Of a DNA stretch of 64,000 nt, positions 17,701 through 29,775 are shown piece by piece. Location of the stretch: NCBI GenBank assembly GCA_017546145.1, contig JAFYXN010000014.1:1-64000 (forward strand), given 5' to 3'. The DNA comes from Clostridia bacterium (lineage in GTDB: Bacteria; Bacillota; Clostridia; Monoglobales; Monoglobaceae). The stretch's first letter is position 1; each line of letters begins with the position of its first letter. Under the pieces are notes generated by a model that was not told where the DNA came from, did not search any database, and saw only the letters and a list, made by a program, of their open reading frames with translations. The position numbers and the translations under genes are program-made.

Positions 17701-18744
17701 TCATATCTCGAATCCGTCTGTGATTCCGGTCAGCCTTGAGCTATCCTTCTTTACATAGTACCTTTCGGTTATCTCGGTAGTGGTGTGTCCGAGGATGTCG
17801 GCTACCGCTTTTATGTTTAGTGTTTTTATGCTTCCGTCAGCACACTTTGTTCCGTTGATTAGCTTGGTGGCGAAGGTGTGTCTGAATGCATGGAGTCCTT
17901 TTGTTTCTATTCCTGCAGCATCTTCTATCCTATATAGCCGCTTTCTCAGGTTAGTTGGATTCGCATAGTCACCGTTGGCATCGCACACCAGCGGTGTGTC
18001 TTCACCGAAGTAGAATTCTTTCCGCAGGTCGTGTATCATTTCTATAGCCGTGCTGTTTAGTGGCACGACGCGTTTGCTTGTGGAGGTTTTTGTTTTGCCT
18101 ACTTTTTTCACCTTACCTCCTATGAGCTTTGTTCCATCTCTTTGGTCGACTAATTTTACCGCCTGCCTTATTGTCATTGTTTTGTTCTCTAAGTCTATAT
18201 CGCTGTTTAGTAATCCCAGGAGTTCGCCTGTTCGTAGACCTGTGTTGAGCATCAGGATGTAGGCTCCTGCCTGCTGATATACTCTGTCAGAATACTGTTC
18301 AACAACAAACTTTGCATAATCGGCAAACCAATTTACGCTTTCGTCATTTAACCAAGCACCCTTTCTGTATAGTTCATACGGATAATCCCAATGAAACAAC
18401 GTTATGAAAGGTTCAATACCATTTTTTAACAATTCATCAATTAAATCAGAATAGAACTTTACTCCCGCTTCATTTACTTTTCCGGTGCCATTTGGGAAGA
18501 TTCTGGACCAACTAATCGAAAACCGATAGGCATTAATGCCGAGTTGTTTCATAAGTGCAACATCTTCTTTAAATCTATGATAATGATCGCACGCAATATC
18601 ACCGGTATGATTTTCTAAAATTTCACCGGGAGTGTGTGTGAAAACATCCCATATACTAAAACCTTTTCCATCTGCATTCCAACCGCCTTCAATCTGATAC
18701 GAAGCAGTAGCTGCACCCCACATAAAATCCTTTTTGAATGGCAT
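17701..18744 (-). pseudogene. In-frame chimera: GH1 beta-glucosidase N-terminus fused to tyrosine integrase catalytic domain
   Basis: One uninterrupted 347-codon frame holds two unrelated halves. Residues 1-155 are the start of a GH1 glycosidase (FMWGAATASYQIEGG, GINAYRFSISWSRI, FHWDYP), stopping just before the WITFNEP acid/base segment expected next. Residues 158-347 are an intact tyrosine recombinase catalytic domain: Arg in NTGLRTGEL, HAFRHTFAT, LGHTTTEITERYY with the nucleophile Tyr. The integrase lacks its arm- and core-binding domains. The junction lies near 18277. GAGGCGG precedes the ATG, so it could be translated. Neither activity should survive. A deletion between an integrated element and a nearby glucosidase gene, or an assembly join, would explain it. 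Confidence 0.85.
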
Positions 18745-19000: not shown

Positions 19001-21673
19001 TTATCGAAGCAATCCGTATTTAACTTTAATTCTTTCAAGCTTGTCTGTCATAGGTTCAGAAATAAACCAAAGGAAAAAGGAAGTTGAAAATGCATGTATT
19101 AAATCCAATGGTATTCCCGTAATATAAGTCACGGCAATCATTTCCCAAGTAATTTTATTCTGCCACATAATAACCGATGCAGGATTCATAATGCCGCCAT
19201 AAATTATAAGCGTTGCTAAAAAGCCAAAAACGCAAAGCGACACCTTTGTTTTTCTAAGGAATCCTTTTCTGAAAAGAATGCCGGCAATAAACCCTATAAT
19301 ACCAAAGGCAAACATCTGCCACGGCGTCCACGGCCCTTGTCCGAAAAAAAAGTTTGACACAAATCCGGTAACTGCACCTACCAAAAATCCCGTTTCTCCG
19401 CCAAAGCACACCCCTGCAATAATCACAAGAGCAACAACGGGTTTGAACTCGGGAAGCATAAAAAATGCCGCCCTTCCAGCAACTGCAATAGCACATAATA
19501 CACTTATAACTATAAGTTCTCTTGCTTTGGGTTTTCTTGACTCAAACACCATACAAAACGGTAGCATTGTTTCAAGTATTATAAGAAAACTTATAAAATA
19601 ATACTTTCTGTCGCCTAAAAAGAAAACACCAATATAGATAGTAAGCGGTATTAAAAGCAGTATTAGGAATGTTGCCAAAAGAGTTCTTTTTGTCAGCTTT
19701 CTGTCCGATTTTGGAGCTTGTATTACTTCAATTCCTATATCCCTTTGCGGAAAGAAGCAAAGAAAGCTAACCGCAATCTCAATTACCGCAACAAGTCTGA
19801 AAGCAGTTAACCCTAAAGCGCCTATTTTTGCAAAATTAAGCATCCCGGCATCCGTTAGAAAAGTCAGAGAAGTTAAAGCAAAAAGCAATGTGAAAATACT
19901 GCCTATGACAACTCTCGCAGCATTTATTTTTTTAATCTTTTCTTTTGGTCTTTTTATTTCTTTTTCAGGTTTATATAATTCAATAATGCGCGGCTGTTTC
20001 GCTTTCTTTTTTACTGTACCGCCGCAGGCAAGTATTATATCCTCTGTCAAAACCGCATCCGGAAGGCTTGTCCTTGCCATGCGGTTTGCAGAAGTAGTAT
20101 AAAAGTTATTGCCCTTAAAAAAGTCTCTTGGAGCGCCTGCCGACGTAATACTTCCATCAAAAACAAGTGCACATCTATCAGCAAACTCTGCACAAAACTC
20201 AATGTCGTGCGACACCATAACAACCGTAACGCCGTTTACTTTCAAACCCATTAAAATATCCGCAAATTCCTCTTTAAAATGAGCATCCATCCCCTTGGTC
20301 GGCTCATCCAAAAGCAATATTTCAGGTTCTATAAGAAGAATTTTAGCAAGTGCAGCCCTTTGTTGTTCGCCCCCTGACAAATCATACGGATGGCTGTCTA
20401 AAAGCTTCTCAATTCTGCAGAGGACGGCAATATTCTGTAGTTTCTGCTCCTTTTCTTCTTTTGAGAGCTTTCTTTCGGATAAAATCTCCATCAAATCAAG
20501 ATAAACCGTCTTTTTAACAAACACGCTTTGAGGGTTTTGCGGCAGAACACCAAGCAATCCGTCATACAGATTTTTAATTTTTAAAATGCTTTGCCCATTT
20601 ATCAGCACATCACCTCTGTAAGGTGTATTAAGTCCCGATATAAGCGAAAGCGCTGTTGTCTTTCCGGTGCCGTTGCCGCCAACAATGCAAAATAACTCAG
20701 CCTTTCGGACGCTCATACTAAGGCCCTTTACAACATCCGGCAAGTCTTTTTCGTATCTGAACCATGCATCTTTGATTTCGATTACAATATCGTCATTGTC
20801 TTTTAAAGTATCTTTTGGAATCACGTCGGGGTTTAATACATTCTCCCTTGAATATTCTTCAAGCCATGTTCTGCCTTCTCTTACCGTTAACGGACATGAA
20901 AGAAAATTCTCAACTTCGCCATGAACCCTCATTGGTGTCGGAAGTGCTTTATACATATCGTGATTGATACTTCTAAGAATTTTACCAACTTCATTGGGTG
21001 TTTCATCCGCAATGATTTTGCCCTCATCCATAACGATTACTCTGTCGGCTATGGGGAAGGCATCCTCCAAACGGTGTTCGGTGAGAATTATGGTTGTGCC
21101 AAGCTCACGGTTTATTTTTTCAAGAGTTCTCAAAAATTCCTGTGCGGCAATCGGGTCAAGCTGACTTGTAGGCTCGTCAAGAATCAAAGCAGAGGGCTGC
21201 ATCACCATTACAGACGCAAGATTTAAAAGCTGTTTTTGACCGCCCGAAAGTTCTGTCACTTTTTTATAAAACCAAGTCTGTATGCCGAAGAATGACGCCA
21301 TTTCCGAAACCTTTGTCCTGATTTCAGGTGTTTTATAGCCAAGACTTTCAAGACCAAATGCAAGCTCGTGCCAAACCTTGTCGGTCACTATTTGATTATC
21401 GGGGTTTTGCATTACAAAACCGATTTCTGATGCTTCTTCTTTTATATTGCAGTCCTCAAGCAATCTGCCGTTAAAATATATATTCCCTTCTAACTCTCCA
21501 AAAGGTGCTAAGGATGATTTTAAAAGTCTTAACAGCGTGGTCTTTCCGCAGCCGGATTTTCCGCATACCAGTACAAATTCGCCCTGATTAACCGTAAAAT
21601 TTATATTATTAAGCACTCTAGCGCATCCGGCAGGATAAGCAAAGCTTAAATTTTCGACCTTAAAGCTTTCCAT
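19001..21673 (-). CDS. ECF transporter fusion: two EcfA ATPase domains and an S component in one chain
   Basis: An 890-residue protein that would power and provide substrate specificity of an ECF vitamin importer, inferred to carry cobalamin. ATPase 1 (about 1-265): CGKSGCGKTT, LSGGQKQ, LILDEP. ATPase 2 (about 300-530): [32 protein letters not shown]. Residues 585-890 are membrane-embedded, with the S-component block FGQGPWTPWQM near 783. Usually these are three proteins. The ATG at 21673 follows GGGAGGTGA; the gene overlaps ecfT by 28 bp. It is last in a unit that begins with a cobalamin riboswitch. The substrate is inferred from that regulation, not from the S domain itself. Confidence 0.88.
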   Translation of the reverse strand: MESFKVENLSFAYPAGCARVLNNINFTVNQGEFVLVCGKSGCGKTTLLRLLKSSLAPFGELEGNIYFNGRLLEDCNIKEEASEIGFVMQNPDNQIVTDKVWHELAFGLESLGYKTPEIRTKVSEMASFFGIQTWFYKKVTELSGGQKQLLNLASVMVMQPSALILDEPTSQLDPIAAQEFLRTLEKINRELGTTIILTEHRLEDAFPIADRVIVMDEGKIIADETPNEVGKILRSINHDMYKALPTPMRVHGEVENFLSCPLTVREGRTWLEEYSRENVLNPDVIPKDTLKDNDDIVIEIKDAWFRYEKDLPDVVKGLSMSVRKAELFCIVGGNGTGKTTALSLISGLNTPYRGDVLINGQSILKIKNLYDGLLGVLPQNPQSVFVKKTVYLDLMEILSERKLSKEEKEQKLQNIAVLCRIEKLLDSHPYDLSGGEQQRAALAKILLIEPEILLLDEPTKGMDAHFKEEFADILMGLKVNGVTVVMVSHDIEFCAEFADRCALVFDGSITSAGAPRDFFKGNNFYTTSANRMARTSLPDAVLTEDIILACGGTVKKKAKQPRIIELYKPEKEIKRPKEKIKKINAARVVIGSIFTLLFALTSLTFLTDAGMLNFAKIGALGLTAFRLVAVIEIAVSFLCFFPQRDIGIEVIQAPKSDRKLTKRTLLATFLILLLIPLTIYIGVFFLGDRKYYFISFLIILETMLPFCMVFESRKPKARELIVISVLCAIAVAGRAAFFMLPEFKPVVALVIIAGVCFGGETGFLVGAVTGFVSNFFFGQGPWTPWQMFAFGIIGFIAGILFRKGFLRKTKVSLCVFGFLATLIIYGGIMNPASVIMWQNKITWEMIAVTYITGIPLDLIHAFSTSFFLWFISEPMTDKLERIKVKYGLLR

Positions 21674-22533
21674 CTTCTCACCTCCCAAACTTCAATTATT
21701 ACAGGATATATACAAAGAAGTAAATATGCTAAAAATACGCTTATGCCAAACGGTGAAACATCCGCCGCTTTTATAGAGGGGAAGAAACTAAAATACATTC
21801 CGCCCATTAAATTCCCGAGAAAAGTATACATTCCTAAAAACAATATACAAACAAGCGCATTCTTATCCCGCTTATCAAATGTAAATATTGAAAACGCAGT
21901 TCTTCCGGCAATACCATACCCACGGGATTTCATACTGTCTGCCGTTTCAATGGCATTTTCAAGTGACCAGGTTGTCATAACCGACAAGATATTAAGTCCG
22001 TGTTTTGCACGCCTTACTATACTTCCGGTCGATACATCACGTCCCATACATCTTTGAGCATTTGTGACAACTTTAAGCTGTGCGGAAAACTTGGGTACAA
22101 AGCGAAGCGTCATAGAGATAATAAGCGACATTGCCGGAATGATTTTTCCAAACAGATAAATAAACTTATCACTTGTCATAACCTCATTATAGCACGAAAA
22201 ATGACAGATGACGCTTAAAATCATTGTTGCAGCACAAAGTCCATAAACAATTGACTCTAACGTTAGGGGATTTCCGCTTGGCAAATATTTGAGTATCGTA
22301 ACCCCCTCATGGTTGAACGCAGGATTTATAATTGCCATCGCAAGAAGCATTGGGAGCATATATATTAAATTTGTTTTAATCGTTTTTTTACCTTTCAGCA
22401 TTACGGAATATGTAAATCCACTCACAATCGAAATACAAAGACACGCAGGATGCATAAAAAAGCAAGAAAAACCAATTACAAATGCAAAATACACAAAATT
22501 CACAATCGGATGATATGTTTTAAATTCTCTCAT
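21646..22533 (-). CDS. ecfT: ECF transporter transmembrane coupling component (EcfT)
   Basis: A 295-residue membrane protein that couples the paired ATPases to the S component. It begins MREFKTYHPIVNFVYF and has about five to six helices. The cytoplasmic region carries the Ala-Arg-Gly-type coupling segments: AQRCMGRDVSTG near 180 and ADSMKSRGYGIAGR near 220. The start at 22533 is chosen because AAGGAA lies upstream and it falls one base after the previous stop. A longer frame upstream overlaps the DUF4430 gene and is unlikely. Confidence 0.9.
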   Translation of the reverse strand: MREFKTYHPIVNFVYFAFVIGFSCFFMHPACLCISIVSGFTYSVMLKGKKTIKTNLIYMLPMLLAMAIINPAFNHEGVTILKYLPSGNPLTLESIVYGLCAATMILSVICHFSCYNEVMTSDKFIYLFGKIIPAMSLIISMTLRFVPKFSAQLKVVTNAQRCMGRDVSTGSIVRRAKHGLNILSVMTTWSLENAIETADSMKSRGYGIAGRTAFSIFTFDKRDKNALVCILFLGMYTFLGNLMGGMYFSFFPSIKAADVSPFGISVFLAYLLLCIYPVIIEVWEVRRWKALRSKI

Positions 22534-22534
22534 T

Positions 22535-23314
22535 TTAGTTACCGTTCCTTGCAGAATAATATCCGCCCACATCTTTTCCCAAATCACAGGTATAGACCCA
22601 CTCTATCTTGTCACCGTCTTTAAGCTGATACCGAGAGCTTCCGTAATTGGGGAACCAGTCATTGACCTTATACATCCAACCTGAACGCTCTCCGCAATCA
22701 AACTCATAGAGATTTCCTATACCCTCGATGTAAGCACTATTATACATTGGTATGTATTCAAACTCCAAATGTATCTTATTTCGTTTCATCTCGCGAACCA
22801 GCACATTGAATACACTTTCGCCTTCATAAAATACAATTGTTCTTTCTGCAAATATTATACCATCTTTTGGAACAAAATCAACCTTTTCTTTATCAAGCCA
22901 CCCGATGTTTTGTAAAATCGTATTGCAACTGACAGACAAGGTGCAAGTAAGCTCTTTGTCTGTAATCGCTGCATTTTCAGGCTCGATTGGTATAGGTTTT
23001 TCTTCGGGAGCAGGATTCGTGGGGTATGTATCTTTGCCAGCATCTTCGTTTATCTCCATTCCATTTTTTTTGGAATATTCTTCATTTCCCTCCTCTGCTT
23101 GGGAAGTCTTTTTATCCGTCTTTGAAAAATGGTCTGTTTCAACAGACTTTTCGTCTATGCTTAAAGTTTCGCTGATTTTTACTTCATTTTCACTGTTTTC
23201 AGAACCGGAAGTACACCCGCGAAGTTCCGGTGCATCACCGCCATACCAAAAGATAAGTGTAAAAAGAATCGCAATCATAACACCTGCTATTATTTTGTTT
23301 TTATGTTTTCTCAT
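22535..23314 (-). CDS. Membrane-anchored DUF4430 (transcobalamin beta-domain-like) protein
   Basis: A 259-residue extracytoplasmic protein. Residues 1-25 hold one hydrophobic helix after MRKHKNK, giving an N-terminal membrane anchor; a Cys follows at LRGC but the lipobox is poor. Residues 35-105 are an acidic Ser/Glu/Lys/Pro linker. Residues 115-250 form a DUF4430 domain, with the diagnostic SGWMYKVN and LKDGDKIEWVY. DUF4430 is known to resemble the C-terminal cobalamin-gripping domain of transcobalamin and intrinsic factor. It lacks the toroid half, which the gene just upstream supplies alone. Spacing is 11 bp to that gene and 1 bp to ecfT. I infer that it hands B12 to the ECF importer at the membrane. 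Confidence 0.82.
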   Translation of the reverse strand: MRKHKNKIIAGVMIAILFTLIFWYGGDAPELRGCTSGSENSENEVKISETLSIDEKSVETDHFSKTDKKTSQAEEGNEEYSKKNGMEINEDAGKDTYPTNPAPEEKPIPIEPENAAITDKELTCTLSVSCNTILQNIGWLDKEKVDFVPKDGIIFAERTIVFYEGESVFNVLVREMKRNKIHLEFEYIPMYNSAYIEGIGNLYEFDCGERSGWMYKVNDWFPNYGSSRYQLKDGDKIEWVYTCDLGKDVGGYYSARNGN

Positions 23315-23325
23315 CTGATTCCTCC

Positions 23326-24933
23326 TTACAAAAGCTTTGCTAAAGAAAGCATATTAAAAAGCATAGATGCTATTTCTGCTCTTGTAACTGCATCGAAAGG
23401 TTTTATATCCATAACGCTGTCATCAAGAATTTTTTCATTATAACAAAAAGCAAGGGAGTTTTGCGACCAATCAGAGCTTAAAACATAGTCAAAAAACTGT
23501 GCCAAAACATCACGGGTTGCAAGTGCATCCATTTCAGTATCTATTCCGCAGAGCTTTGCGGCCCTTGTAACCATTACTGCCGCTTCTTCACGAGTGATTG
23601 CTCCGTTTGGATTAAATTCATTTTCTGATATGCCTTTTATTATTCCATAAGAATATACCGTCCCCACATAGTCATAAAACCAGTCGCTTGTTGTTACATC
23701 TTTGAAAATTGTATTACTTTTTTGAGGAAGCCCAAGACCTCTTGCGATAATTGTCGCAAATTCTGCTCTTGTCATGGTACTGTTTGGTTCAAAACTATTT
23801 TCCGTCTTACCATTTATAATTCCTCTTGAAGCAAGTGCTTCAATAGCTATTGCATCTTTATGACCAACAATATCTGCAAAGGTTTTTCCGGGATTTAAAA
23901 TGTTCATTTTCTGAACGTCTGCATTTTTCCCTTCAAGGCCTGCTGTGCCTGAACTAACACTAAGCTCTTTGGCGTCACTCATATCAAAAAGAGAGTTCTT
24001 TCCTTCGTTTACACGCTTTAACGCAGCAAGGGCATAAAAACATTGTTCTGTGGCCATTAAGTTTGCAGGACCGCCATGTATATGTTTAAACCCTTTTCCG
24101 TTATCATAGTACGAAAAAAGATTATCAATCACAGACTTTCCGTTTTTTACAAAGCGTTCATCACCGGCGGAAATATCGAGCTCGCAAAGGGCAACTATAA
24201 CCTGAACACTGCTCTCGGAATTTTCTGTTTCAAAGCCTTCAAATCCGCCGTTTTCTTTCTGCATCCGCGATAAGCAGTCAAGGGCTTTTTCTGTCGCAGA
24301 CTTAACCTTGGCATTATCCTGATATTTTGAAAGTGCCTGAAGTGCCATTCCGGTAACATCAGGATTGGCTATATCACCTGATAATGCCCATCCACCGTCA
24401 GATGTTTGTTTTTCCAGAATATGATTTATATACATTTCTCTTGTTGCCTGAACCTCTGCATCGGGATTGCTTGGCATATCATAGTTTCCGCTGTCAAGTG
24501 CAATGAGTGCCCATATAGCTCCGTTTATTCCTTGCCATATTGTTTTCTCATAATCTCCAAGCGGTATTAAAAGATTGTAGCCTGCAACATCAGCAGGGTT
24601 TTTACCGATAGATGTGAGAGCAACTATCACTCTTGAATATTCTGTGTATTTCTTACTATGCAGTACACCCCCGCAATCTTTAACATATTTTGTAACCGTC
24701 TGATAGTAATTCTCAAAATATTCATCGGAAATATCCATATCACTTCGTGCAAGACCTAAAACTGTCCATTCACCGCCGATGGAACCCACAATAGGCTTTT
24801 TTACTGTTTCGTATAAATAATTTCCAACGCTTTCTAAAGTAACATCTACTTTATCCTTATCAAAAGCAAATGCTTGCGATGAAAGGCTGAAAATAATCAT
24901 CAAAGTTAAAAGTATTGATATAAATCTCTTCAT
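23326..24933 (-). CDS. SLH-anchored alpha/alpha toroid protein (transcobalamin alpha-domain-like)
   Basis: A 535-residue secreted protein. Signal peptide at 1-23. Residues 25-320 contain helical repeats of the prenyltransferase/terpenoid-cyclase toroid type, recognisable by GGW/GGF turns (SDGGWALSG, ENGGFEGF, GKGFKHIHGG) followed by helices such as TGMALQALSKY. Human intrinsic factor and transcobalamin have this toroid as their alpha domain. Residues 350-535 hold three SLH repeats (FADIVGHKDAIAIEAL, FKDVTTSDWFYDYV, WSQNSLAFC) for binding secondary cell-wall polymer. There is no DUF4430 domain. I infer the surface half of a split B12-binding pair; a true terpene cyclase is unlikely because of export and context. 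Confidence 0.82.
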   Translation of the reverse strand: MKRFISILLTLMIIFSLSSQAFAFDKDKVDVTLESVGNYLYETVKKPIVGSIGGEWTVLGLARSDMDISDEYFENYYQTVTKYVKDCGGVLHSKKYTEYSRVIVALTSIGKNPADVAGYNLLIPLGDYEKTIWQGINGAIWALIALDSGNYDMPSNPDAEVQATREMYINHILEKQTSDGGWALSGDIANPDVTGMALQALSKYQDNAKVKSATEKALDCLSRMQKENGGFEGFETENSESSVQVIVALCELDISAGDERFVKNGKSVIDNLFSYYDNGKGFKHIHGGPANLMATEQCFYALAALKRVNEGKNSLFDMSDAKELSVSSGTAGLEGKNADVQKMNILNPGKTFADIVGHKDAIAIEALASRGIINGKTENSFEPNSTMTRAEFATIIARGLGLPQKSNTIFKDVTTSDWFYDYVGTVYSYGIIKGISENEFNPNGAITREEAAVMVTRAAKLCGIDTEMDALATRDVLAQFFDYVLSSDWSQNSLAFCYNEKILDDSVMDIKPFDAVTRAEIASMLFNMLSLAKLL

Positions 24934-25012: not shown

Positions 25013-28000
25013 TTATTTTGCTACGCCCTTGCAAAAGCGCATAAGAATTGCCGCAACCTGTGCACGGGTTGCCGTAGCTTTCGGCGAAAGAGTGTTTTGG
25101 CTTGTGCCGTTTACAAGTTCTGTTTTATTTGCCCATTTAATCGCATCAATCGCCCAATCACTTACATCATTCGTATCTTCAAAATCTGAAATGTCGGCTT
25201 TTTCGCTCACATCATACCCCTGCATTTTTGCAAAGCGATAGATAATAAGCGCCATCTGCTCACGTGATATATCATTGTCAGGAGCAAACTCCGTCTTGCT
25301 GATACCGCTTACAATTCCACTTGAAGCAGCCCAAGCAACCGCATCCGAGTACCACTGTCCTTGCGGTACATCTGCAAAGCTATGTGTGTTTTCAGACATT
25401 TCAGGGTTTGCCATTCTGTAAAGAACCGTTACAAGCATAGCTCTTGACATTTTGCTTTCAGGCTCAAAGCCGCTACCTGTACCCTGCATAAGATTGTTTT
25501 CATACACATATTTTACAGATTCATAATGCCAATCATCTTTTTTAACATCTGCAAATGTAGTTTCGATAAAAGCGGATTTTTCTACAACTTCGTTCTCTTC
25601 CTTTTTAGTTTCTTCCTCAGTTGTTTCTTTTTTAGGAGAAGTATCTTTTCCTCCAAAGGAACCCGTTGTACCGGGAACAGTTGTCCAGTCATCTGTGTAG
25701 AACCAAACAATTTTATCCCCGTCATCAATGCCGCATTCAGTCAACCCAACCTTGGGCAGGGTGCCATTTACTTTATACATCCATCCTGCATTTTTACCAT
25801 TGGTAAATTCATCCAATGTTCGCCCACCCTTTGTCATTGACTTGACATATCCGTTTGCAGCACCTACCTGAGTGATGTCACTGTTTTCAAGTGCTTCTAT
25901 CAAAGCATGATATACGGTCGCACCGGTGCCTGATATAGTAACAGACTTGTTATTCAACCAATAACCGGTATCGGACTTGATGGTTAAGGTAACAGTGATA
26001 CTATCTCCGCTTGGAGCAGACGGAGTTGTAACTGTACCTGTTCCTGTGGCACGACCCAGGGATAGAGTGTTATTACTAAAGTCATAGACATTATAGGCTG
26101 TACTGTTTTTAATTACCTGATATGCTGAAATAAGGGCAGGAAAACCTTGCTGCGTAGCGTACGCATTTATCGTGGTATCGCCGGCATTAAGCCCAAATCC
26201 GCTATTGTTCTCTAATGCAAAATCCAAAAGACGATCGAGTACACTGTTTCCATTCTTTATGAAACGGATATCAGTGTCAGGATTTATTCCCATTGCGCTG
26301 AGACCCATAATAACACAAGCAGAATTGTTGGCATTCTCACCCCATGTTCCGCCAAAGCCACCGTTATCTAACTGAACTTCACTAAGGTATGAAACTGCCT
26401 TATCGACAGCGTTCTTAACATCAACATTTCCATTATAATATTTAGCAAGTGCCAAGATAGCCATACCTGTAGCATCTGCCTCTGCTGTTTCCCAAGAGGC
26501 CCAACCGCCATTCTCAAGCTGTGTACCTAAAAGTGCGGTAACAACATCTGCTTCTTTTGTTTCAGTACTGTAGTCACCCTGCTGATAAGCAAGAAGGGTG
26601 TAGGCTGTAGTCCAGATTGCAGCTGAGTGAGAAACACTGTTTAGTTTTGCAACTGCATCAACGGGTGTGTTGCTGTTTACCGGATACATCTCTTTGGGAT
26701 TTATTCCAATACTGTGCATATCCAAAATTGCTTTAGAATATGCGGACTCATCCGGATTTTCAGCAGAAATGTTACCAAGCGAAGTGTTAATCATATTTTG
26801 TTTTGCGGTATCAGTAAGTTTTGAACCCAAAGGACGCACTTTCTCATAGGCACCCATAGCCATAAATGACTCCCAGTTGGTTGCAGAAGTTGTCTGTGCC
26901 GCAATGCCGTCCAGCAAAGTTTCCAAAGATTCAGCGGTATTCGCTATGCGAGAACCCAAAACGGTAATTTTAATCGTTTTCTTTACACCTTCCACACCTG
27001 TAATGGAAGTCTTCAAAGAAACTTCCGCATTCAGGCTAATTTCCGTATCAAGCAGAGGTGTTGTTACTTTCCCGGTACCATTATTAAATGTGATTACACC
27101 CGCCGGTGTTATGGTCCACATAATTTGATAAGGATATGAACCGGAATTGTAAGTATTGAAGGTGACTTTATCTCCATCAATCTTTGCATTTTGCCTCAAA
27201 TAAATATTTGAAGTAACTGCCAAAGCATTTGTGTTCTTATTTTTTATTTCATCAAATGTCAGGGCATCTGCTACCTTTTGCAGCTTGGCACGTTCTTCGT
27301 CCAGTTCGGATTCTGTCCATGCCAACACTGTGGCATCAAAACTCTTAGATATACCTGTTTCTCCCTTGCTGAGCGTGAGAGTTATTGTTCCTGTCGCATT
27401 TTTTTCGTTAACAGGGCGGGTTACTGTTGACTTGTCATAGCCCTTATTGGGAATCGTAATCGGCAGATTTGTACTCCATGTGGTAGTGTAGCCCTCATAA
27501 GACGGAAAATACAGATTGTCCTTGATGTTTGACAGGTCTGCGACCGCACCATTTTTATCTGTAATCTTAATATTGGATGCAGCTCCGTCCAAAATTACCT
27601 GCATTTCTTCATTAGTTACAGCAGGAACTACTATATCAAAAGCAATCTGTCTGTCTGTTTCTTCAGGCATAGGGCCTGCGCCACACATAATGGAGGTTGT
27701 TTTATAAACGAGTGTTGCTGTCAGAGTAACAGTCACGTCCGATTCTCCAACATTTGGTCGATTAATCTTTACCTCATATTTACTGCCGGATGGATGAGAG
27801 GAAGAACTGCTGGGATTTCCGGTGACTTTAATTATACTTTCATTGTCAGAAGCCCATGTGATATACAAACCGGAACTCTTGCCGCCGGGCAGTAAAAGAG
27901 TGGTCTTCACTTCATTTAAGGAAGTGTTGCCATTAAGCACTTTAGCATCCTTCATATATCCCGGCATAGCTGTTTTCATAGAGTCTATGGCTTCTGCTTT

Positions 28001-29284
28001 GGTCTGCGCGTGCTTTGGTATTACAGCACTTATATTTATCTCTTCACTTTGTCCATTATATGTTAATGTAAGAGGCAAGGTGGTTTCTTTTGCTTCATCC
28101 GTATGATAAGTAATAATGCCGTCAGCCGCAATAATATCTGTAGCAATAAAATTCTCAGCAAACGCTACAGTAATACAATCATCATTTATTACTTCACATA
28201 CCAAATCTAATATATTGGTGTCATCCTTCACAGAGTCGTATTTGAATCCCGAATCTGTGGCATTGGTATATTCCATCGGTTGAAGAATCTTGTTTTTCAA
28301 AGTTTCCTTTGCCATACTCAAGCGACCAGGGATTTTGATTGTAATTTCTTTGTTATCCGTTGCATCATTGCACCGGATTGTAGCTATCAAGGTGACTGTT
28401 GTATCTTCATCGGGAATAGTTACCACACCTGTATCAGTATCTACGCAGCCACTATCAGAAGCCCATTCAATTTCGGTTTTTCCGCTCTTGCCGGTTTTTG
28501 GAAGATTGAGATTCTGTCCGTTAATGTATGTGACATTTAATGCTTCTTTGTCTTCTGCCACATACTCTGCATCAGCTTTTCCTTCTTCTGTTACAGTAAC
28601 AATACAAACAGGAGGCACGATATAGGAATTAGCGTACTTAGCAGAAACAATATACGTACCGCCCTTTTCAAATGACAGAGAAACCTCACCCTCAGCATTG
28701 GTTATTTTATCCGAAACTTCTTTACCATCTACAGTAATCACTGCACCGGTTAAAGGAGAATTTCCTGAATAACCTGCCTGTGTAAGTGTCAAATCCAAGG
28801 TGTTGCCATCGGCAATCGCAGCGGTGGTTTTATCAAAAAACGTGTATGTGTCAGACCATCCTGCGGTATCCTGATAAAACCAGAAAACGAGATGTGCTCC
28901 ATCTTCAACAATATCTGTCAAGCCCATCGCATAGTTGTTGTTATTATAATAGCTGACATATTCAGATTCAACACCCCAAAACTTCGTGACGGAGGTGTAT
29001 ACACCCATATCAGTTGTTCTATAACCACTTACCCCGTCTATGTAATAGTTCTCATGCAAAGAGGTAAATGCTTCGTCAATCGTTGACGACTCACTATCTA
29101 ATGCAACCGGAACATATGCAATTGTCTCGTTGTTTTTTCCGGTTGCAAACTCTCCGTTTCTTACCACGCTGGCATAAAATGTAATGCTGTCTGCTGCCAT
29201 AACCCCCACGGGCAGAATTGACATAACCATCGTGAGTGCTAATAGAACAGCACCAAAACTTTTAAATATTTTTTTAAATTTCAA
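25013..29284 (-). CDS. Giant SLH surface protein with toroid and DUF4430 domains (transcobalamin-like)
   Basis: A 1423-residue exported protein. Signal peptide 1-30. A DUF4430-like domain at about 33-150 (KFWGVESEYVSYY, IVEDGAHLVFWFYQD). A carboxypeptidase-regulatory-like sandwich at 165-232. Several bacterial Ig-like repeats at about 245-777 (WASDSGCVDTDTG, ITWASDNESIIKV, YTTTWSTNLPI). A toroid with GGW/GGF turns at 785-1072. A canonical DUF4430 at 1095-1200 (AGWMYKVNGTLP, IDDGDKIVWFYTDDW). An acidic linker, then three SLH repeats at 1244-1423. Toroid plus DUF4430 is the two-domain plan of transcobalamin and intrinsic factor. The start is a TTG preceded by AAAGGA; no in-frame ATG fits better. 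It is the first gene behind a cobalamin riboswitch. The B12 ligand is inferred. Confidence 0.85.
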   Translation of the reverse strand: MKFKKIFKSFGAVLLALTMVMSILPVGVMAADSITFYASVVRNGEFATGKNNETIAYVPVALDSESSTIDEAFTSLHENYYIDGVSGYRTTDMGVYTSVTKFWGVESEYVSYYNNNNYAMGLTDIVEDGAHLVFWFYQDTAGWSDTYTFFDKTTAAIADGNTLDLTLTQAGYSGNSPLTGAVITVDGKEVSDKITNAEGEVSLSFEKGGTYIVSAKYANSYIVPPVCIVTVTEEGKADAEYVAEDKEALNVTYINGQNLNLPKTGKSGKTEIEWASDSGCVDTDTGVVTIPDEDTTVTLIATIRCNDATDNKEITIKIPGRLSMAKETLKNKILQPMEYTNATDSGFKYDSVKDDTNILDLVCEVINDDCITVAFAENFIATDIIAADGIITYHTDEAKETTLPLTLTYNGQSEEINISAVIPKHAQTKAEAIDSMKTAMPGYMKDAKVLNGNTSLNEVKTTLLLPGGKSSGLYITWASDNESIIKVTGNPSSSSSHPSGSKYEVKINRPNVGESDVTVTLTATLVYKTTSIMCGAGPMPEETDRQIAFDIVVPAVTNEEMQVILDGAASNIKITDKNGAVADLSNIKDNLYFPSYEGYTTTWSTNLPITIPNKGYDKSTVTRPVNEKNATGTITLTLSKGETGISKSFDATVLAWTESELDEERAKLQKVADALTFDEIKNKNTNALAVTSNIYLRQNAKIDGDKVTFNTYNSGSYPYQIMWTITPAGVITFNNGTGKVTTPLLDTEISLNAEVSLKTSITGVEGVKKTIKITVLGSRIANTAESLETLLDGIAAQTTSATNWESFMAMGAYEKVRPLGSKLTDTAKQNMINTSLGNISAENPDESAYSKAILDMHSIGINPKEMYPVNSNTPVDAVAKLNSVSHSAAIWTTAYTLLAYQQGDYSTETKEADVVTALLGTQLENGGWASWETAEADATGMAILALAKYYNGNVDVKNAVDKAVSYLSEVQLDNGGFGGTWGENANNSACVIMGLSAMGINPDTDIRFIKNGNSVLDRLLDFALENNSGFGLNAGDTTINAYATQQGFPALISAYQVIKNSTAYNVYDFSNNTLSLGRATGTGTVTTPSAPSGDSITVTLTIKSDTGYWLNNKSVTISGTGATVYHALIEALENSDITQVGAANGYVKSMTKGGRTLDEFTNGKNAGWMYKVNGTLPKVGLTECGIDDGDKIVWFYTDDWTTVPGTTGSFGGKDTSPKKETTEEETKKEENEVVEKSAFIETTFADVKKDDWHYESVKYVYENNLMQGTGSGFEPESKMSRAMLVTVLYRMANPEMSENTHSFADVPQGQWYSDAVAWAASSGIVSGISKTEFAPDNDISREQMALIIYRFAKMQGYDVSEKADISDFEDTNDVSDWAIDAIKWANKTELVNGTSQNTLSPKATATRAQVAAILMRFCKGVAK

Positions 29285-29413: not shown

Positions 29414-29534
29414 CTGAGTTTTTCTGTGATGAATCACAATTCAGATAAGAATATGGGACAAAGCCATGAAACATACATTTCAGCACCTCAATCTGAAAAC
29501 ATCATCTCTATGCAAATGATCACTTACGAGATAA

Positions 29535-29750
29535 CATCAAAGCAGGTCTTGTGACTCGCATCATATAGACTAATAAGTCTGCATTTTTGCATCCTGCCTT
29601 CTCAGTTTCCCAATGACCGGCTTTCGCCGACGGATACAAAAACTTCGATGCACACACCGACAGTTTAACCGCAGGGGATTCTCACCCCATTCCCTTTCCA
29701 TCAATTATGCCTTGCAGGCACGCTTTTACAGCATAACCGACACTCTGTGT
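29535..29750 (-). promoter_or_regulatory. Cobalamin riboswitch aptamer
   Basis: On the minus strand the conserved core AAAGGGAATGGGGTGAGAAT is followed by CCCC and GCGGTTAAACTGT. Further on come AAGCCGGTCA, a GGGAAACTGAGAAGGCAGG arm and, near 29543-29560, the B12 box GCGAGTCACAAGACCTGC. These match the cobalamin riboswitch consensus in order and spacing. In this class ligand binding normally switches off downstream genes, here the 1423-residue protein through the ECF fusion. Confidence 0.92.
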
Positions 29751-29775
29751 GAATGTATTAAATTTTTACTTAGCT

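Follow-up and report, generated by a model that had tools for sequence, protein, structure and literature searches.

A toroid gene and a membrane-anchored DUF4430 gene beside a CbrT-like ECF importer: candidates for a two-gene corrinoid receptor

Transcobalamin, intrinsic factor and haptocorrin are the B12 carriers of animals. In the 64,000-nucleotide stretch of clostridial DNA analyzed here (the window), an alpha/alpha toroid and a DUF4430 (SLBB) domain are encoded on two adjacent genes, P2 and P3, next to the genes of an ECF importer, which raises the question of whether the two products work together as one receptor. The operon runs on the minus strand in the order riboswitch, P1, P2, P3, EcfT and EcfA-EcfA'-S (Table 1). 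The gap between P2 and P3 is 11 bp and contains a Shine-Dalgarno-like GGAGG, and the genome contains a second set, P1'-P2'-P3', of which P2' and P3' are 67% and 60% identical to P2 and P3. Because the arrangement of P2 and P3 recurs in dozens of genomes as well as in this second copy, it is not due to chance. Elsewhere in the window, a 347-aa frame (17701-18744, minus strand) reads in translation as the start of a GH1-type beta-glucosidase running into the final part of a tyrosine recombinase/integrase, either an integration scar or an assembly chimera, and a Gut-1 RNA (RF01706, 3724-3798) lies beside a tRNA.

Table 1. Features of the operon, with positions in the window
Feature	Positions	Strand	Basis
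Cobalamin riboswitch, 5' of the operon	29524..29761	-	Rfam RF00174, 36.3 bits (gathering score 31.5), full-length match
P1, 1423 aa: aBig_2, toroid, DUF4430, SLH	25013..29284	-	Pfam and fold model
P2, 535 aa: signal peptide, alpha/alpha toroid, SLH; without DUF4430	23326..24933	-	Pfam
P3, 259 aa: N-terminal membrane anchor, linker, DUF4430 (SLBB); without toroid	22535..23314	-	Pfam
EcfT transmembrane subunit	21646..22533	-	phmmer against PDB EcfT 5d3m/6fnp, E 1.3e-13
EcfA-EcfA'-S fusion, S CbrT-like	19001..21688	-	ABC_tran 189 bits, TIGR04520; 6fnp

The original prediction had assigned a toroid and an SLH anchor to one protein, DUF4430 and a membrane anchor to the next, and both kinds of domain to the product of the first gene of the operon, and the domain searches bore this out. 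P2 matched Prenyltrans with 28.3 bits (cut-off 26.5) and SLH with 109 bits, without DUF4430. P3 matched DUF4430 with 63.5 bits (cut-off 23.8; E 2.6e-17, Pfam), without a toroid, and has an N-terminal hydrophobic stretch followed by a polar linker of about 95 residues between the anchor and DUF4430. A motif in this linker (GKD-Y-T-P-PE-KP-P-EP, residues about 80-120) is kept in many P3 orthologs and is unusual for a plain spacer. P1 has DUF4430 (44.4 bits) and a toroid, for which the Pfam match (Prenyltrans, residues 882-1023) is weak and under the cut-off. In a Foldseek search with the model of its toroid and DUF4430 (25646-26998), transcobalamin, intrinsic factor and haptocorrin took ranks 1-10 (E 5e-10 to 1e-7); as modeled, P1 is transcobalamin-like in one chain and anchored in the wall. 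By eye, P1 residues about 30-150 (near 29200-28830) also resemble a divergent SLBB/DUF4430 domain, for which Pfam made no call.

We estimate a probability of about 0.5 that P2 and P3 together form a transcobalamin-like corrinoid receptor, each as one subunit, which serves the ECF-CbrT importer. P1 and P2, held by SLH in the cell wall or S-layer, would capture the corrinoid; the DUF4430 of P3, on its flexible membrane tether, would close over the corrinoid in the P2 toroid; and P3 would then bring the corrinoid to the CbrT-like S component, where release would take place. We infer the corrinoid binding, the contact between P2 and P3 and the hand-off to the S component, and it is a pure guess that the ligand itself drives the assembly of P2 with P3. 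The ligand-gated pairing of the two proteins is plausible and unproven, and the complete picture, in which a two-subunit transcobalamin assembles around the vitamin and so ferries the corrinoid through the wall of the Gram-positive cell to its ECF importer, is a tentative one.

The recurrence of the pair was studied in loci collected by DUF4430 from 38 genomes of the window's family, and in a phylum sample, for which 299 genomes were searched with DUF4430, 96 had matches and 40 regions were fetched. A further 46 loci in named genomes, found with P2 as the query and hence P2-biased, were left out of the frequencies. Domains were called with home-made HMMs, and a DUF4430 with 100 bits or more was classified as P3-type. 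A lone toroid was encoded directly upstream of the P3-type gene in 22 of 30 cases in the family and in 11 of 20 in the phylum sample; the recurring order was lone toroid, membrane DUF4430, EcfT and A-S. DUF4430 genes other than the P3 type were mostly downstream of a gene with both toroid and DUF4430. A lipoprotein of 158 aa, encoded beside radical-SAM genes on contig C27 of the source genome (L007, 5894-6370), represents a third type of DUF4430 protein.

In FastTree phylogenies, the P2-type lone toroids, including that of the window, formed one clade of 66, and the P3 DUF4430 domains, also including that of the window, formed another of about 90 (support 97-99), while the toroid and DUF4430 of P1 fell outside both. 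Thus, P2 and P3 represent an old two-gene module rather than a recent break of P1, and a recent fission of a P1-like gene was rejected on this ground. The C-termini of P2 orthologs consist of SLH, of dockerin (44 bits in Pfam for L118; by inspection for L121), or of neither. Members of genus g4 encode a secreted toroid of about 315-340 aa that carries nothing else, next to a DUF4430 protein that reads as a lipoprotein. Since such a toroid is unanchored, it would need a surface partner, for which the P3-type DUF4430 is the obvious candidate; the unanchored toroid beside a lipoprotein DUF4430 is further support for a two-gene receptor. Dockerins on toroid or DUF4430 proteins of these B12 operons (L118, 8540-10999; L117, 220-2055, by Pfam; L121, 6034-7398) suggest possible attachment to a scaffoldin.

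In 51 operons, with the distances of EcfT, EcfA and S removed, the partial correlation between the distances of the P2 toroid and the P3 DUF4430 was 0.52 (p 0.001, where p-values are by label permutation and shared ancestry is not fully removed). In the same operons, P3 was correlated with S (0.28, p 0.006) and T with S (0.57), and the correlations of P2 with S and with T were near zero. The P2-P3 correlation persisted when ranks were used, when the set was restricted to an 80% core and when the lipoprotein clade was left out, and faded in the closest 30 pairs (0.13, p 0.14). The same signal would arise if P2 and P3 had been transferred jointly. As a reading of sequence distances, the whole pattern among P2, P3, S and T would fit a relay.

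A doubtful, although possible, alternative is that P3 is a free-standing corrinoid-binding relay that serves the S component and needs no toroid, with P2 as an independent binder or store in the wall that happens to lie in the same operon. The P3-S correlation agrees with this, as do three loci (L155, L164 and L168) in which a membrane or lipoprotein DUF4430 gene adjoins a CbrT-like S gene with no toroid. Furthermore, P3-type proteins were present in five genomes in which no toroid was found, four of them incomplete MAGs of the same genus (G023, G024, G026 and G029) and one complete (G083). In three of the toroid-free P3 genomes, a propeller-like protein stands for the toroid: at the same-genus loci L048, L056 and L059, the gene before P3 encodes an SLH protein of 936-968 aa that reads as a beta-propeller, and Pfam calls only SLH in that of L059. 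However, the specific correlation between P2 and P3, the strict order of P2 then P3 in most operons of the P3 clade and the unanchored toroids speak against this reading. The idea of a split transcobalamin is therefore upheld in part: the B12 context, the conserved adjacency and the co-evolution of P2 with P3 favor it, whereas the toroid-free P3 genes, the propeller-like substitutes and the lack of any detected fusion between the P2 and P3 clades count against an obligate split.

Gene fusions of the two halves had been suggested as a check of the split receptor, and those that were seen join other partners. In L117, L119 and L120, a P2-type toroid is fused to DUF4430 in one protein; this DUF4430 is a different, wall-side one, and P3 is still separate in L117. 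In L160, a P1-like protein ends in a fused P2-type toroid, and in the single-contig genome of L193 (2613-4826, minus strand), a CbrT-like S component, a toroid of another clade and SLH share one frame of 737 aa. Judged from these predicted proteins, the fusions show that toroids are tied to both DUF4430 and the importer, and P3 is not singled out. The wall-side fusions bear on another alternative, namely that the true partner of the P2 toroid is the wall-side DUF4430 encoded by the P1-type gene at the head of the operon, and that P3 only receives the corrinoid from these two. In L118, homologues of the fusion protein of L117, L119 and L120 are encoded as adjacent DUF4430-dockerin and toroid-dockerin genes; and in 20 operons (of which a few run off their contig), the gene upstream of the pair encodes DUF4430 and SLH with no toroid detected. 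However, when the P1 DUF4430 was added to the analysis (33 operons), the P1-P2 correlation (0.14, p 0.06) was weaker than the P2-P3 correlation (0.31, p 0.018), no P1-type gene was detected directly upstream of the P2-P3 pair in 26 operons, and P1 of the window already has its own toroid. We regard this partnership as unlikely.

The ligand of the operon is, by inference from its genes and regulation, likely a corrinoid. The best PDB match of the S part was 6fnp, the ECF-CbrT transporter for vitamin B12 (E 3.2e-7), and EcfA, EcfA' and S form one polypeptide of 895 aa, a fusion kept in most loci of the window's family. EcfT, which had no Pfam match of its own, starts at ATG 22533; an alternative in-frame GTG upstream at 22587 would overlap P3. 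The set thus contains a CbrT-like S component, EcfT and two ATPase domains, as does ECF-CbrT of Lactobacillus delbrueckii (PMC5997447, 6FNP), a biochemically proven transporter of cobalamin and cobinamide; unlike in ECF-CbrT, A, A' and S are one polypeptide in the window and are preceded by genes for extracellular receptors. The riboswitch is the single copy of RF00174 in the source genome (a MAG 89.5% complete), in which no match to CbiD and three proteins with a B12-binding domain were found. Among 23 relative loci scanned, 18 carried a cobalamin riboswitch that scored above the gathering threshold; it often precedes a P1-type gene, and in L175 it is immediately followed by the lone toroid. 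In genus g4, it lies 5' of the P1-type gene, with none detected immediately ahead of the operon of toroid, DUF4430 and ECF genes. The import of another vitamin or a tetrapyrrole-like substrate could be argued from the NCBIfam families for folate and riboflavin that the S part matches under the cut-off, and from the substrate being a prediction; against the riboswitches of the window and its relatives, and CbrT as the best solved match, it is highly improbable. The squalene-hopene cyclases and sugar epimerases among the profile and fold matches of the toroid might imply an enzyme, either terpene-cyclase-like or carbohydrate-active; this is scarcely credible for secreted proteins in a riboswitch-bearing B12 operon, with the motif D.DD[TS] missing from 150 of 154 toroids. 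A terpene cyclase was rejected for the window itself, where this DXDD motif is absent from the toroids of P1 and P2.

Fold comparisons match both domains to their counterparts in the transcobalamin family. Toroid folds were matched by P1 and by the model of a P2 ortholog (Z about 23 against toroid folds; Z 21.5 for SLH against 3pyw), and DUF4430 was over the cut-off in P3 and P1. As in transcobalamin, intrinsic factor and haptocorrin, the toroid is followed by the DUF4430-type beta domain across P2 and P3; unlike in these carriers, and unlike in P1, the two domains are on separate polypeptides with separate anchors. In sequence searches, the P2 toroid reached 12.4 bits with Pfam Cobalamin_bind (PF01122, a eukaryotic model; cut-off 25), a toroid profile searched against PDB sequences gave cyclases and macroglobulins with no transcobalamin among the matches listed, and P3 alone found no relative in a sequence search of solved structures. 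P2 and P3 of the window are out of frame with each other, and the pair was modeled with the in-frame orthologs of L090, reading through the stop to give a ligand-free pseudo-fusion of 737 residues with a 63-row alignment. The domains were good (pLDDT 87, pTM 0.57), and transcobalamins aligned over both in order (E 2e-6 to 3e-4), although cyclases, epimerases and SLH domains came first on structural re-alignment. The packing of transcobalamin was absent (rmsd about 27 A), likewise in the ligand-free positive control, the natural P1 fusion (20-22 A), whose model (pTM 0.72) matched transcobalamin, intrinsic factor and haptocorrin first.

Reassembly of the domains of intrinsic factor with cobalamin was reportedly the subject of a 2004 study by Fedosov, to go by its title. 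Burroughs et al. (2007; PMC1796856) described secreted bacterial proteins with toroid and SLBB in operons with CbiO/CbiQ-like genes, proposed B12 scavenging, and noted that complexes at the cell surface may involve another SLBB protein of the operon. The operon of the window likewise combines CbiO/CbiQ-like genes with a DUF4430 protein that is secreted or at the surface; in the proteins of that study, as far as its accessible text goes, toroid and SLBB are fused, whereas P2 and P3 are separate, and a lone-toroid gene kept in a pair with a gene for a membrane DUF4430 was not found described in that text. The surface B12 lipoproteins of Bacteroides (PMC6143338) similarly capture B12 for an importer, in a Gram-negative system. 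No paper on a split toroid/DUF4430 pair was found in the open-access literature searched. Thus, toroid and SLBB in ECF operons have been known since 2007, and the conserved two-gene unit with separate anchors is a variation on that theme.

ECF transporters are usually described without extracellular binding proteins, and to our knowledge, little is known about how B12 passes through the thick wall of Gram-positive bacteria to reach them. A conserved, co-evolving two-gene receptor would be a concrete and testable answer to how B12 crosses this wall. As predicted from its sequence, a gut bacterium may encode both parts of one human B12 carrier as two adjacent surface proteins beside a B12 importer.
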